A stretch of 64,000 nt of DNA from Methanolinea sp. (GTDB lineage Archaea > Halobacteriota > Methanomicrobia > Methanomicrobiales > Methanospirillaceae), in assembly GCA_018262855.1 (NCBI GenBank), contig JADFDO010000001.1:124001-188000 (forward strand), read 5' to 3'. The translations under genes were made by a program, and so were the position numbers. The stretch's first letter is position 1. Each line of letters starts with the position of its first letter. The notes below the pieces were generated by a model. It saw only the letters and a list, made by a program, of their open reading frames with translations, had not been told where the DNA came from and searched no databases. Positions 18,058 to 24,555 of this stretch are shown here, in pieces.

Positions 18058-18861
18058 TTATCTTTTCAAGCCTCTTCTGTGACAGAGAATTGCACCTGCA
18101 CCAAGAATCCCCGCCATGCAACCCGCAAGGGGTGCTGAAGCCCGGGGCAAAACCGGCACATCAGATGAAGCATTGGGAGAATCCGGTACTTGAGAAACGG
18201 TGGCAGTTGCCGGATAATCAACCATGAATTGTATCGTTGCCATGAATCCCTTGATGTCATAAAAATCAACATAGTAATTGCCCCTTTCTTCAACCTTGAT
18301 TGTTTTTGAAAAATATCCGTCATCCTTTCCGAGCTGTGTGGTTGTACGGATGTCCTGCGGGGGAACAACCGCTCCCTGGGGTCCGTTTATTTTCATGGTT
18401 ATCGTAGTCACTCCTGCTTTGGGAATGTACCCCTCTATCCTGAGCGCTTCTCCAAGTTCCTGTTCCGTATCAACAGTAAGAACAATCTCCCCTGACCTGT
18501 CAGAGATCTTGATGGTTCGTAGCGTCACGGAATCTGATGAGAGTTTTTGCCCTGGATCGGTGGAGAATTTTACTTCGGCCTTGTAATTTCCCGATTCAAG
18601 CCCGGTCGTTGGGAAAGAGACCTGGAACGACTTGGAATCATCAATGACAACCATCCTTCTTGCCACTTCACTGGGTGTGGATGGTTGCAACTTATAGAGG
18701 ACGATATCGAATTGCGTTCCAACCGGGAACGTGGTGTCCCCGGTCACTTCCAGGGGTGCTCCGGCGGTGATCTCGGATGGGGCAGATATAGTAAGCACGT
18801 ACGCCTGGACGCTTCCTGCAAGGCAGAAAAGGCAAAGCAGGAGAATAACTGCTGATTTCAT
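18058..18861 (-). CDS. Predicted surface protein with beta-sandwich domains
   Basis: 267 residues from the ATG at 18861 (MKSAVILLLCLFCLAGSVQA), a clear signal peptide cleaved after about residue 20. Two Ig-like beta repeats follow ('TISAPSEITAGAPLEVTGDTTFPVGTQFDIVL' and 'LTVDTEQELGEALRIEGYIPKAGVTTITM'). A Ser/Pro-rich spacer leads to a C-terminal membrane helix (APLAGCMAGILGAGAILCHRRGLKR) with a basic end. It has the layout of methanogen cell-surface proteins; the ligand is unknown. It is convergent with the histidine kinase. Confidence 0.7.
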   Translation of the reverse strand: MKSAVILLLCLFCLAGSVQAYVLTISAPSEITAGAPLEVTGDTTFPVGTQFDIVLYKLQPSTPSEVARRMVVIDDSKSFQVSFPTTGLESGNYKAEVKFSTDPGQKLSSDSVTLRTIKISDRSGEIVLTVDTEQELGEALRIEGYIPKAGVTTITMKINGPQGAVVPPQDIRTTTQLGKDDGYFSKTIKVEERGNYYVDFYDIKGFMATIQFMVDYPATATVSQVPDSPNASSDVPVLPRASAPLAGCMAGILGAGAILCHRRGLKR

Positions 18862-19227
18862 GTCATGCATTCAGATGGCTGAAGATAATTAGTTTCTCCT
18901 CACCAGGTAGATTGCACCCCATTCACAGGGTAAAAACCTCTCCATTCGCTTACCCTGACCTGTTTATGGCCATAACATGGGATTAGCCGACGGTTGGGGA
19001 GCCCTTCCATGAGGAGCCGCCCTTACGTGATGTCCTGACAATAACTCCTGCCTGAACCTGTATGGCGCAATAAAACTGTTGTGAACGGGGGGGTAATAGA
19101 GAATATCTACAGCTTTTTTTAAACAAACACTGAAAAACGATTCTTTTCCCTTTTAAACTGATTATTATATTTTTTTACACCGGTTTTAAGAATAACTATA
19201 TAAATTGACAGCGCATGTTTCTCTCAT
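18862..19227. other. Intergenic region before CDC48-N-like cluster
   Basis: About 365 bases without a credible gene between divergent units. The last 120 bases are very AT-rich and contain a clear TATA element (19197-19205). The first 250 bases show no open frame with a ribosome site, no RNA fold that I recognise and no long repeat. Confidence 0.5.
19197..19205 (+). promoter_or_regulatory. TATA box of the 19.2-21.2 kb cluster
   Basis: TATATAAAT ends 22 bases before the ATG at 19228, the spacing expected for a near-leaderless archaeal transcript. The six following genes are on the same strand with overlaps or short gaps, so this is probably the promoter of the whole cluster. Confidence 0.65.
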
Positions 19228-19689
19228 ATGGATTCCGTACAGTTGAAAATTCAGGAAAGGGCATTTCCCAGCAGGGGGCGGGCGAGGCTCAATGAGGTAT
19301 ACCTCAAACAGCTTGGTATCAGTGAGGGAGACGAGGTTGATCTCTTCAAAGATCCCTCTGCAAAGCCTGTTGCCGTCACAGTGTTTGCAGACACCCTTGT
19401 CGAAGAGGGGCATATCCGGCTCAGTACCGAAGACATCGCGAGTATCGGTGTTGCACCGGGAACCACCATCACGGTAAAGAAGAGGCCCCCGCTCGCTGAC
19501 AGGGTCAAGAAGGGGGCAAAAGACTCAGCGGAGAGTGTCAGGGCAGGCGCGAAAGGGGCCGCAGAGACCATCAGGGGGAAAGCGAAAGGAGCTGAGAAAG
19601 ACCTGCAAGAGAGTGCATCAACGGCAAAAGAAACCCTCGAAAAAAGTTCCGAGGCTCTGAAGAAGAAACTCTCCGAGAAAGACCTGTGA
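19228..19689 (+). CDS. Stand-alone CDC48-N-like domain with LEA-like tail
   Basis: 153 residues. Residues 1-88 resemble the double-psi beta barrel that starts CDC48/VAT ATPases: 'GRARLNEVYLKQLGISEGDEVDLF' and 'GHIRLSTEDIASIGVAPGTTITVKK' match in pattern. There is no AAA ATPase domain. Residues about 92-153 are an Ala/Lys/Glu tail with 11-residue-like periodicity (AKDSAESVRAGAKGAAETIRG), like LEA or apolipoprotein amphipathic helices that coat membranes or protein surfaces. The fusion is unusual. It opens a cluster of small coiled-coil proteins and may be an adaptor between them and a protein-quality-control ATPase; that is inference. Confidence 0.7.
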   Translation: MDSVQLKIQERAFPSRGRARLNEVYLKQLGISEGDEVDLFKDPSAKPVAVTVFADTLVEEGHIRLSTEDIASIGVAPGTTITVKKRPPLADRVKKGAKDSAESVRAGAKGAAETIRGKAKGAEKDLQESASTAKETLEKSSEALKKKLSEKDL

Positions 19690-19705
19690 TACCCGGAGCA
19701 ATACC

Positions 19706-20089
19706 ATGGTTGACATTTGGGTGAACCTCAGCAACTCACTTCCAATTATCTTCCTCCTGATTGGGCTGATCGTCGTGTATTTCATTATCCGTGAGATCCG
19801 TCTCACGTATACGAAAACGAGGATGGCGCAGCTGGATCTTGAGAAGGAGAAACTCCAGGTGATCAAGGCTGATTTCGAGAGAAAAGAGAATCCCTTCTTC
19901 AGGATCTCTCCGGGAAAAATGGAGGAACTTAAAAGTCTCGATGACGAGAACTCCCTGCTTGAAACCGACATATACGCCCAGCAGAACGCAGTGGAGAAGA
20001 GGATCCAGAGACTGGAAAGCAAGGTGAGGCTGAACAAGCTCGATCACATGATCGAGAAGATTAAAAAAGAAGAGGATCGACTGAAGTGA
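19706..20089 (+). CDS. Membrane-anchored coiled-coil protein
   Basis: 127 residues. One N-terminal membrane helix (about 12-30, LPIIFLLIGLIVVYFII) is followed by a long helix with heptad character (residues 32-127), likely a coiled coil on the cytosolic side. No enzyme motif. Start ATG 19706 has GGAG eight bases upstream. It lies 16 bases after the CDC48-N-like gene and 6 bases before the next, so it is part of the same transcript. I do not recognise it; an anchor or scaffold is the simplest guess. Confidence 0.68.
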   Translation: MVDIWVNLSNSLPIIFLLIGLIVVYFIIREIRLTYTKTRMAQLDLEKEKLQVIKADFERKENPFFRISPGKMEELKSLDDENSLLETDIYAQQNAVEKRIQRLESKVRLNKLDHMIEKIKKEEDRLK

Positions 20090-20095
20090 TGCAGA

Positions 20096-20404
20096 ATGAC
20101 CACGTTTGAAACACCTGGAATTACCGGCGAGAGGCATTCGTTCTTCGACTCGTTGAAGGAGATACCTGGCTACATCGACCAGCGGCTCCCGACGATGGAC
20201 AAGGATCTTGACCGGTATTTCGACCAGAACCTGCCGGCAGTGATCGACGAATGGGGCCTCGTCAGCAGGGTTCACCTCACCGAGCTGGAAAGGAGGCTCT
20301 CAAGGGTGCACATGCAGATTGATTTCCTGGAAAAGGAGCGAGTAACCCTTGAAGCGAGAGCGGACCGGTTGGAGAAAGAACTGCGAAAACTGGAGGATAT
20401 ATGA
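20096..20404 (+). CDS. EW-motif coiled-coil protein A
   Basis: 102 residues. The core motif 'YFDQNLPAVIDEWGLVSR' at about 41-58 is shared with the next two genes. Before it lies a degenerate half-copy (YIDQRLPTMDKDLDRY). After it comes a coiled coil (LTELERRLSRVHMQIDFLEKERVTLEARADRLEKELRKLE). No membrane segment. The gene overlaps the following one by 4 bases (ATGA). I know of no described family with this motif; it looks like one member of a set of paralogues that may assemble with each other. Confidence 0.66.
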   Translation: MTTFETPGITGERHSFFDSLKEIPGYIDQRLPTMDKDLDRYFDQNLPAVIDEWGLVSRVHLTELERRLSRVHMQIDFLEKERVTLEARADRLEKELRKLEDI

Positions 20405-20622
20405 ACCGGGTTGACTACATGGGGGGGTACCTTGATCGGCGCATGAAATACCTGATTGAGGAATGGAACCTTGCAACTCGAAACGACCTTGGCGATCTTT
20501 ATATCCGTCTCCATTCAATAGAGGACGAATCCAGGGCTTGTGCCGGATTTGAGGCCACAGCATCTGCAAAGCTCACGGAGCTTGAGAAGAGACTGGAGTA
20601 CCTGAAGGGGATGAGAAGATGA
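20401..20622 (+). CDS. EW-motif coiled-coil protein B
   Basis: 73 residues, the shortest of three paralogues. It starts with MNRVDYMGGYLDRRMKYLIE, giving the motif 'YLDRRMKYLIEEWNLATR' at residues 10-27, then a coiled coil (LGDLYIRLHSIEDES ... LTELEKRLEYLKGMRR). No membrane helix, so it should be soluble. Both ends overlap neighbours by 4 bases, which implies tightly coupled, near-stoichiometric translation with proteins A and C. Function unknown. Confidence 0.66.
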   Translation: MNRVDYMGGYLDRRMKYLIEEWNLATRNDLGDLYIRLHSIEDESRACAGFEATASAKLTELEKRLEYLKGMRR

Positions 20623-20957
20623 CCCTTGTTGAAGCGCTTCTGTTCCTTGTCCTTATTTTCCTCGTGGGTTTCGTTCTCTACTACTACTTCAGGGGATCTC
20701 TGGGCAGGGTAGAGATCTCCCGGCCTGTGGAGAGCCGTCTTGACGAGTACCTTGACCGGCGTTTCGATGCCATGATCGAGGAATGGTCCCTTGTCAGGAG
20801 ACCCGAAGCGCAAAAATTCCGCGATGAGAAACTTGCGGATCTCTCGCAGGACGAGAAGAGAATGGCTGAGTTGAAGGGATTTGAGAAAAATTTCGGCGAG
20901 CATCTCACCAGCATGGAGGAAAGGCTTGAGGCTCTGGAAAAGCAGGTCATCAGGTAA
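20619..20957 (+). CDS. EW-motif coiled-coil protein C, membrane-anchored
   Basis: 112 residues. An N-terminal membrane helix (about 5-25, EALLFLVLIFLVGFVLYYYF) precedes the motif 'YLDRRFDAMIEEWSLVRR' (about 44-61) and a C-terminal coiled coil (DEKRMAELKGFEKNFGEHLTSMEERLEALEKQ). The motif matches proteins A and B at the D, I, E-W, L and R positions. It may hold the soluble paralogues at the membrane. The start overlaps protein B by 4 bases. Function unknown. Confidence 0.68.
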   Translation: MTLVEALLFLVLIFLVGFVLYYYFRGSLGRVEISRPVESRLDEYLDRRFDAMIEEWSLVRRPEAQKFRDEKLADLSQDEKRMAELKGFEKNFGEHLTSMEERLEALEKQVIR

Positions 20958-21237
20958 CCAGCAGAACAGACTACGGAAAGAGGACCTGGTATCCCGTATC
21001 AGGAAAGATATTCCACAAATACGGAAACAGGGGGAAAATCCGGACAAGGATACCGGAAGTTTCTCCCGGTACCTCTGCGATCTCTGCAGCAGCCCATATC
21101 CGAATACCGATCTCCGGCAGTGCACCCTTTGCGGCAGATGGGCCTGCCCCTCCTGCTGGACAGAGGAGTATTACGTTTGTAATTCCTGCAAAGGAATGAT
21201 AACTCTCCATACGCTGCCCGAGAAGAACCCAAAGTAA
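20881..21237 (+). CDS. Zinc-finger protein, last gene of EW-motif cluster
   Basis: Up to 118 residues. The C-terminal half holds a run of CxxC pairs (CDLCSSPYPNTDLRQC, CTLCGRWACPSC, CNSCKG) that would bind two zinc ions in a cross-brace or ribbon fold. The start is uncertain: the only standard start codon in the frame near the junction is a TTG at 20881, which would overlap protein C by 77 bases; no ATG or GTG occurs before the zinc region. Either a rare start or coupling by the upstream gene is needed. Such folds usually bind proteins or nucleic acid. Confidence 0.55.
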   Translation: MRKISASISPAWRKGLRLWKSRSSGNQQNRLRKEDLVSRIRKDIPQIRKQGENPDKDTGSFSRYLCDLCSSPYPNTDLRQCTLCGRWACPSCWTEEYYVCNSCKGMITLHTLPEKNPK

Positions 21238-21391
21238 CATTACAGTCCAGGGAAAACAACGCAGGTCTCCAGCGACCTTCATCCCCCCACGAATATTTTT
21301 TATTCATGATCCTTTTTCCGGGACCCGCCATCCAACCACCTCGCCCCGCGACACGATACCTTCATGTACGCCGGTGATGAAGAGATCCCAC

Positions 21392-21964
21392 ATGGAAGAA
21401 TCGGTTGTGATACTGAATCCGTGCGACAGGGGGTGGGGAGCACTCGTGATCCTTGGGGTAATATCTCTCCTCTTCGGTTTTCTCATGATGCTATTTCCGG
21501 AGACCACGGCGATTGCTGTCCTCACTCTTGTGGGCGTACTCCTCATCATCCTAGGGGTCATTATGCTTCTCTCCTCACTTCTTATGCCAGCCGGCGCACC
21601 CCATTCGCTCCTTCTCCTGGTTGGAGGTATCGTGGGTATCCTTGCCGGGGTGGGAGTAATTCTCTACCCAATAGTTGCCGGGTCTGTTATAGTCGAGATC
21701 CTCGGTGCTGCGATCATCATTATCGGGATGATGCAACTGCTCTTCGGGCTGGTCCATGAGAGTGATCCGCGCCGGGTCATCTACATTGTATCAGGGATAA
21801 TATCCATTCTATTCGCACTCCTGATCGTGTTCTATCCCTGGCTTGGCGGTATCATCCTCTTTGGGTTCCTTGTCGGTGTTTATTTCATGCTGCTGGGCAT
21901 CCTTATCATTGCTGCCGGATACCTCAGTCACCGTATCTGTTCCGGGATGCTCTCCCGGACCTGA
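21392..21964 (+). CDS. HdeD-like (DUF308) membrane protein
   Basis: About 190 residues with six predicted membrane helices in three pairs, each pair of the DUF308 type (for example ALVILGVISLLFGFLMMLFPETTAIAVLTLVGVLLIILGVIML). The PxxxxxxxxxLxG spacing repeats three times. In enterobacteria HdeD is linked to acid stress; in archaea the role is unknown. The start is uncertain: ATG 21392 has GGTGATG eleven bases upstream, and in-frame ATG 21377 or GTG 21374 would add a few residues. Confidence 0.8.
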   Translation: MEESVVILNPCDRGWGALVILGVISLLFGFLMMLFPETTAIAVLTLVGVLLIILGVIMLLSSLLMPAGAPHSLLLLVGGIVGILAGVGVILYPIVAGSVIVEILGAAIIIIGMMQLLFGLVHESDPRRVIYIVSGIISILFALLIVFYPWLGGIILFGFLVGVYFMLLGILIIAAGYLSHRICSGMLSRT

Positions 21965-23008: not shown

Positions 23009-23944
23009 CTATTCCCGGGCTTCGGTATTCATCTTTACCCGTAACCGCCATCCTCCGGCACAGAGGACAATTCCCAGCAGGAGAACCAGGATACCAAAAA
23101 TTTCCATGAGCAGGGCTACCATTGCATCCGGTATCAGCAGTATCAGGAGTGCAAGAAGGAGCGAGAAGATCCCGGTCATCAAACGGCGGTAAAATCCCTC
23201 AGGTACAGAGTCTTTTCCCCTTGCCACCTGGGAAAAAGACATCCAGGCGCTCCCGAATGCCCAGAACGAGAGAACAAGAAGGACGATCTGGACAAAGATA
23301 TCGAGCGGGAGATAAAATGATACAATCCCCATCAGGAATACCGACACACCGATGAACAGGCTCCCCCGGGAAACAATCCCTGTGAAGTCCGGGCTGATTC
23401 CCTTCCGGCTGATGATTATTCCGAGGACCATGATCAGCAAGGGGACCATAATGCGCAGTATTCCACCAAACGTGAGAAGCGGATTGAGAATAATCCAGGT
23501 CGCAACCAGGAAAAGAGCGAATCCAACCATGATAAGGATCTGCCAGGTCCTCTTCTGCTCTTTCAGGAGTAAGCCGGTTTTTATCTCCGCGCTTTTTCGC
23601 GCACTTGCAACAAGGGCGGTAAAGGTGTCAGCAATCATGAGAAGGAGTGGTGCATCGTCGACGAGGTGAAGAAACGGATGGGTCTTTGGATCATAACGAT
23701 CCAGATGGACGGAAAAGGCCGTTTGTTTCTCATGGATATGGTAGTGCCCTTTCCGGTAACTCGCAAGGGTTCCCGGTGAGGGGATATTGAGGAGGGATCG
23801 CTCCCACCCAGGCCCAAGAGGTTCCGTAACCGAGCTTTTTGGTATGGTTATCTCCCAGATACCTTCATGCAGTGGTCCCAGGAAGTCATCAATTCTGGAA
23901 ATAACCCTCACACCTAATTGGTATTGGACCAGTTTCAGTATCAA
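23009..23944 (-). CDS. Membrane protein with soluble head and DUF308-like tail
   Basis: 311 residues. Residues 1-125 form a soluble part of mixed strands and helices without a recognised motif. The remainder has about seven membrane helices, the last pairs resembling HdeD/DUF308 (GIFSLLLALLILLIPDAMVALLMEIFGILVLLLGIVLCAGGW). It may be distantly related to the protein encoded at 21392, two genes away. Start ATG 23944 was chosen as the only good one. No function can be assigned. Confidence 0.62.
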   Translation of the reverse strand: MILKLVQYQLGVRVISRIDDFLGPLHEGIWEITIPKSSVTEPLGPGWERSLLNIPSPGTLASYRKGHYHIHEKQTAFSVHLDRYDPKTHPFLHLVDDAPLLLMIADTFTALVASARKSAEIKTGLLLKEQKRTWQILIMVGFALFLVATWIILNPLLTFGGILRIMVPLLIMVLGIIISRKGISPDFTGIVSRGSLFIGVSVFLMGIVSFYLPLDIFVQIVLLVLSFWAFGSAWMSFSQVARGKDSVPEGFYRRLMTGIFSLLLALLILLIPDAMVALLMEIFGILVLLLGIVLCAGGWRLRVKMNTEARE

Positions 23945-24042: not shown

Positions 24043-24555
24043 ATGAATCAGGCTGCCACGATCATTGTCTGTGCAGCCCTCATCGCTCTGCTTGTTACCT
24101 GCGGATGCAGTATTCCATCAGATGGAGTCAGTGGTTCCACCGAAGGGAAGTCCCCAGTTCCGGCATCTCCCCATATCCATGAAGGTACGCTTGAAGGTAC
24201 GACCTGGTATCTGGTCGCGTTTCACACCGCTTCAGGTCGATCCTCCGAAGTCATCCCAGGTTCCGAGATAACAATTTTTCTCGATGGTAATGGACGGATA
24301 ACTGGCAATGCCGGATGCAACCGGTATACCGCATCATATACCCTCTCTTCGGACCTTCTTTCGATCGGCAGTCCTGACATAACACAGAATTACTGTGCAT
24401 CGACCCCGGGCATCATGGTGCAGGAGAGCGTGTTCCTTTCCGATCTGCAGAGGGTTACCCGATCAACGATCGATGAAAACATCCTTACAATGATTGGAAG
24501 GAATGGTGCTCCGCTCCTCACCTACAGCAACATCAAATCCCCTTCTGCCCAGTGA
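24043..24555 (+). CDS. META-domain (HslJ-like) lipoprotein
   Basis: 170 residues. A signal peptide ends in a lipobox-like LLVTCGC, so the protein is probably a lipid-anchored extracellular protein. The META domain spans about 50-160 with the family hallmarks 'LEGTTWYLVAF', 'ITGNAGCNRYTASY' and the paired Cys in NYCASTPGIM. Bacterial META proteins such as HslJ are linked to heat shock and novobiocin resistance; no archaeal function is known. A tandem META relative is encoded at 53069. Upstream 18-bp direct repeats may control it. Confidence 0.82.
   Translation: MNQAATIIVCAALIALLVTCGCSIPSDGVSGSTEGKSPVPASPHIHEGTLEGTTWYLVAFHTASGRSSEVIPGSEITIFLDGNGRITGNAGCNRYTASYTLSSDLLSIGSPDITQNYCASTPGIMVQESVFLSDLQRVTRSTIDENILTMIGRNGAPLLTYSNIKSPSAQ

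Follow-up and report, generated by a model that had tools for sequence, protein, structure and literature searches.

The N domains of CDC48 and VAT (PF02359) bind client proteins or adaptors. FYVE domains bind lipid through a basic RHHC patch, and helices of 11/3 periodicity are typical of proteins that bind lipid surfaces, such as apolipoproteins and synucleins. Burroughs, Iyer and Aravind are said to have surveyed prokaryotic RING fingers in 2011. The Pfam entry for one such family, Prok-RING_2 (PF14445), covers the zinc domain only and describes no six-gene unit.

The locus considered here lies in a 64-kb stretch of DNA (the window), in which six small ORFs, A-M-E1-E2-E3-Z, occupy positions 19228-21237 (Table 1). 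A first-pass annotation of the window had reported this six-gene cluster, and all six ORFs were found where it placed them. It had also stated that no described system has these parts. In the literature covered, which lies outside the survey of prokaryotic RING fingers, we found no published account of the six-gene unit or of PF14445, and the EW family (E1, E2 and E3), the architecture and the unit as a whole were without a match. Within that scope these three appear to be new; the Prok-RING_2 domain and the CDC48-N barrel were already known.

Layout and strict co-inheritance of the six genes

The upstream TATA box, described at first pass as clear, has similar AT-rich counterparts, at comparable distances before the ATG, in a majority of the 38 orthologous loci. 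This spacing implies a leaderless message, and the cluster mRNA is therefore probably leaderless. For gene Z the most likely start is the TTG at 20926, in a frame open from 20881. The three junctions expected to overlap by at least 4 bases do so: E1/E2 and E2/E3 by 4 bases, in the window as in 30 and 28 of the 38 loci, respectively, and E3/Z by 32 bases, a length found equally in 19 of the 38.

Table 1. Positions in the window of the cluster promoter, the six genes and the adjacent DUF308 gene.
Feature	Position	Strand	Description
TATA box CTATATAAATT	19196-19206	+	Cluster promoter; box starts 32 bases 5' of the ATG of A
Gene A, 153 aa	19228-19689	+	Predicted CDC48-N-type double-psi barrel and 11-residue-repeat tail; C-terminus EKDL
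Gene M, 127 aa	19706-20089	+	Predicted N-terminal membrane helix and cytoplasmic coiled coil; trimer motif RIQRLE
Gene E1, 102 aa	20096-20404	+	EW paralogue 1, predicted soluble long helix; motif at 20222-20269
Gene E2, 73 aa	20401-20622	+	EW paralogue 2; motif at 20434-20481
Gene E3, 112 aa	20619-20957	+	EW paralogue 3, predicted N-terminal membrane helix; motif at 20754-20801; trimer motif RLEALE
Gene Z, 103 aa	20926-21237	+	Predicted eight-cysteine cross-brace zinc domain, Prok-RING_2; FYVE-like core CxxCGRWxCxxC
DUF308 (HdeD-type) membrane protein	21374-21964	+	PF03729, E=1.2e-13; outside the invariant core

Gene order is identical in 38 of 38 loci, drawn from 38 genomes that span three families of the order and 16 genera; those loci that bear names belong to Methanolinea sp. 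and Methanoregulaceae archaea. In a search of 61 relatives, A and E1 matched one identical set of 31 genomes, and Prok-RING_2 was present in those 31 and in two more in which the gene stands at a contig end. When 393 genomes of the phylum were searched, strong EW and strong Prok-RING_2 matches again fell in an identical 31 genomes, 28 of which hold exactly three EW copies, and no strong EW match lay outside the cluster. The six genes are a strictly co-inherited unit, and the earlier claim that they stay together in related genomes is borne out. Some species have none of the six although their genera otherwise have the cluster. Since the absences include species inside cluster-bearing genera, the unit is gained or lost whole. 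Within our survey it is confined to one order of methanogens, and the genes that flank it vary from genus to genus.

Patchy presence of the whole unit, missing in some members of genera that otherwise bear it, is what an anti-virus or mobile accessory system might leave behind. Such a system is nevertheless highly improbable here. Across eight pairs, dN/dS for the six genes is 0.03-0.32 (dS of E2 being saturated in one pair), and purifying selection on the cluster, together with the single copy per genome that is the rule, argues against it. The block holds neither enzyme nor toxin and has no clear relative on plasmids. PADLOC gave no match of note and IMG/VR held no cluster copy, and on these two results a defence system was rejected.

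Two departures from the common pattern were observed. One genome (G027) has cluster copies on two contigs: in the first (L075) Z is absent and a membrane protein gene follows, and the second (L101) begins within E2 and has both Z and a DUF308 gene. Separately, two 71-aa frames with a weak Prok-RING_2 match (E about 1e-7; L102:5618-5833 and L103:5630-5845, both on the minus strand) belong to another family of the phylum, and there the other five genes are missing.

The barrel and tail of A and the zinc domain of Z

Gene A matches PF02359 (CDC48_N) with E=8.6e-7 over positions 9-82 of 85. The score of 29.5 bits does not reach the curated cut-off of 35.1, but the family was matched by 24 of 24 A orthologues scanned, and a profile of the barrel alone found only CDC48-type or designed double-psi barrels in the PDB (18 of 18 matches). 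These matches assign residues about 1-88 of A to a lone CDC48-N-type double-psi barrel, as the first-pass annotation had supposed. A can be aligned with the N domains of CDC48 and VAT along almost the entire double-psi barrel; it differs from them in having neither ATPase domains nor a second N subdomain, and carries an amphipathic tail instead. With 153 residues and no AAA ATPase match, A is thus not a CDC48 family ATPase.

Hydrophobicity along the tail of A repeats with a period of 3.667 (z=48), and residue identity rises to 0.26 at lag 11 and to 0.25 at lag 22, from about 0.10 elsewhere. Lengths of A orthologues within the genus are 120, 142, 153, 164 and 175 residues, in steps that are multiples of 11. 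The tail had been described as LEA-like; a closer description is an 11-residue amphipathic repeat of the apolipoprotein and synuclein type. A's tail has this repeat and the 11/3 periodicity in common with apolipoproteins, synucleins and group 3 LEA proteins, and unlike theirs it is fused to a CDC48-N-type barrel. The likeness is one of repeat type and does not imply homology. Short versions of A end in [DE]-L in 26 of 33 cases. In five orthologues (L070, L072, L076, L093 and L095), a TrkA_C (RCK_C) domain scoring above cut-off takes the place of this usual C-terminus, an addition that the first pass had missed.

Gene Z had been called a CxxC-rich zinc protein, which was right as to the zinc domain but missed the named family. 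Z is a full-length member of Prok-RING_2, matching it over positions 1-56 of 56 with E=1.5e-26 and 92.8 bits, far over the cut-off of 22.4. Its cysteines are laid out as C2C-11-C2C-4-C2C-7-C2C; among 30 orthologues seven of the eight are invariant and the eighth is nearly so. This cysteine pattern establishes Z as a predicted two-zinc cross-brace domain. Z also resembles FYVE (PF01363) and FYVE_2 (PF02318) in its core CxxCGxxxCxxC and its eight-cysteine layout. Most members match these families when scanned singly (11 of 12 for FYVE and 10 of 12 for FYVE_2), all of them below cut-off; the Z of the window scores 14.4 bits for FYVE (cut-off 27.8) and 18.7 bits for FYVE_2 (cut-off 27.2), and it has LRQC where FYVE has RHHC. 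The AlphaFold2 model of Z is of low confidence (pLDDT 60) and gave no Foldseek match. A profile of the Z core found PHD fingers as its best matches in the PDB (E=0.03). A TFIIE-alpha-like assignment was rejected: the full-length PDB matches came partly from the linker, and the core alone gave E=1.1. By its place in the cluster, the poorly understood Prok-RING_2 family gains a fixed set of partners and hence a testable role.

A CDC48-N-type barrel in A, a Prok-RING_2 protein in Z and two full CDC48 ATPases encoded in the same genome together fit the main rival to the scaffold that we propose below, an ERAD-like CDC48 adaptor for membrane proteins. The barrel of A would then copy the CDC48 N domain, collecting adaptors or competing for them, and Z would be a RING-like receptor, with the membrane coils gathering clients for CDC48 and the proteasome. 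We consider such an adaptor rather unlikely. The six-gene block contains no UBX, JAB or ubiquitin-like gene, and a search of 61 relatives for ubiquitin E2 (UQ_con), itself without any control match, gave no match. Besides its RING name, Z is weakly FYVE-like, and its model is too poor for the fold to be placed.

The EW trio, the membrane helices and the likeness to phasins

A search of the whole window in six frames for the exact EW motif found three occurrences, all in E1, E2 and E3. Profiles of the orthologues of E1, E2 and E3, restricted to the motif segment, match one another with hhalign probabilities of 97.7-98.4%, whereas the motif profile matches M, a coiled-coil protein, at 0.3% at most. 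These values indicate that the EW likeness is not a matter of coiled-coil composition, an explanation that was accordingly rejected. The first-pass annotation had described three EW proteins with a common motif; they are true paralogues, and their likeness lies in the motif segment. In a tree of 114 proteins, E1, E2 and E3 form one clade each (97-99% bootstrap). By this phylogeny they are separately kept paralogues of ancestral origin, and one clade per paralogue implies a single ancient triplication with all three copies kept. AlphaFold2 predicts a single helix at residues 31-101 of E1 (pLDDT 85-97 over residues 41-100), and a PDB search with E1 found coiled coils only.

A match of the trio to a characterised family would have counted against the first reading. 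The EW family is absent from Pfam, and comparison with characterised families gave nothing above threshold and only one weak match, to the phasin family PF05597, which leaves that reading standing. The phasin match was obtained at E<0.01 with 11 of 27 E1 proteins (best E 1.9e-5), and an E1 profile scored 18.1 bits against a real Acinetobacter phasin (L107) where the highest of 500 shuffles scored 7.8. Of the 31 cluster genomes, 15 have PF05597 matches within the cluster itself; among the other genomes a match anywhere was found in 4 of 30. The bacterial phasins PhaF and PhaI thus have a helix signature in common with E1, as far as the point where the zipper begins. They differ from the EW proteins, which form three paralogues, one of them membrane-anchored. 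The best PF05597 score, 23.4 bits, is under the curated cut-off of 28.8, which was exceeded in 0 of 61 genomes.

These matches, along with a match of A's tail to apolipoprotein A-IV, are what a storage-granule or lipid-body coat would lead one to expect, with phasin-like E proteins and apolipoprotein-like A covering a hydrophobic surface. A coat of this kind is very unlikely. Every phasin score is under the curated cut-off, and two of the products, M and E3, are membrane proteins. A search of 31 genomes for class III PHA synthase, in which the control matched, found the enzyme in none of the cluster genomes among them and in one relative that lacks the cluster. A PHA granule coat is therefore not supported, and the EW proteins are phasin-like by sequence signature but, by these tests, not phasins.

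In both M and E3 a hydrophobic N-terminal helix is followed by positive residues, from which the C-terminal part of each is predicted to be cytoplasmic. For M this agrees with the first reading, which had called it a membrane coiled-coil protein. The pattern R-h-x-x-h-E is a trimer motif of parallel coiled coils (PMC3653964). It is present in 38 of 38 orthologues of M, 38 of 38 of E3 and 33 of 38 of E2, compared to an expectation of 1-2 of 38 from shuffled sequences (2 for M). E1 mostly lacks it (2 of 38), which counts against the scaffold reading.

M is laid out like ZapG, and within its one order the cluster has a patchy distribution; both might suit a scaffold for cell shape or division in rod- and filament-forming methanogens, comparable to single-pass coiled-coil division proteins. 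The resemblance is in layout only, as the sequence similarity to ZapG (PF06295, E=0.17) is not significant, and no division gene is among the recurrent neighbours. We regard a division scaffold as quite unlikely.

A proposed membrane scaffold and its neighbours

The anatomy and conservation of the cluster are well supported, and its function is what we infer. Our tentative proposal is that the six products may form one membrane-anchored complex, a scaffold for stress or quality control from which clients pass to CDC48 or the proteasome. M would assemble as a parallel trimer and E1, E2 and E3 as a heteromeric, probably trimeric, helical bundle, with the anchors of M and E3 holding both at the inner face of the membrane. 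The tail of A would run along the bundle or on the membrane and present the barrel, which would bind clients or adaptors in the manner of CDC48 and VAT N domains, and Z would dock either a partner or a site linked to lipid. Acting as a stress or quality-control scaffold at the membrane surface, the assembly would pass clients on to the proteasome or the CDC48 of the cell itself; the presence of two full CDC48 ATPases in the genome fits this reading too. The TrkA_C domain of some A proteins might be an added switch for a small ligand.

The membrane-linked scaffold suggested at first pass is partly supported by the two membrane-helix proteins, the conserved trimer motifs and the amphipathic tail; the absence of any enzyme-coding gene from the six-gene block counts against it, as do the CDC48_N score of A, which is under the cut-off, and its missing second N subdomain. 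The domain types of the cluster (CDC48-N, RING/FYVE-like zinc and apolipoprotein-like repeats) are those of eukaryotic membrane quality control and traffic, and with the recurrent DUF308 neighbours they would point to a role in envelope stress or protein quality control. Should the parts assemble as outlined, they would provide a ubiquitin-free, membrane-bound presentation of clients to CDC48. The full version, in which a heterotrimeric coiled coil of three paralogues and a trimeric partner make a membrane platform that displays both a free barrel of CDC48-N-like type and a zinc domain of FYVE/RING-like type, and delivers stressed membrane clients to CDC48 and the proteasome without ubiquitin, is unlikely to hold in every part.

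A DUF308 gene lies within 600 bases of the cluster at 15 loci in four genera, where it may be downstream, upstream or divergent. At about 3 such genes per genome, the chance of finding one in four genera is an estimated ~1e-6, a figure in which shared descent partly remains. Evidence from neighbouring genes is weak and in part reflects common descent, and this too counts against the scaffold reading. META-domain lipoproteins and a VTT/DedA protein are likewise recurrent neighbours, less tightly so than DUF308.

Several other genes stand near the cluster. A membrane protein homologous to the DUF308 neighbour, with a weaker score, is encoded 1.8 kb further on (23009-23944, minus strand). META-domain (HslJ-like) lipoprotein genes are found near the cluster in three genera, at 24043-24555 on the plus strand of the window, at L069:5743-6249 and at L073:11178-11684. 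Divergent from the cluster, the gene at 18058-18870 on the minus strand encodes a secreted or surface protein that has a membrane anchor at its C-terminus. Most members of the genus to which the window belongs keep this protein beside the cluster, and it stands there once in another family, in that case on the same strand (L079).
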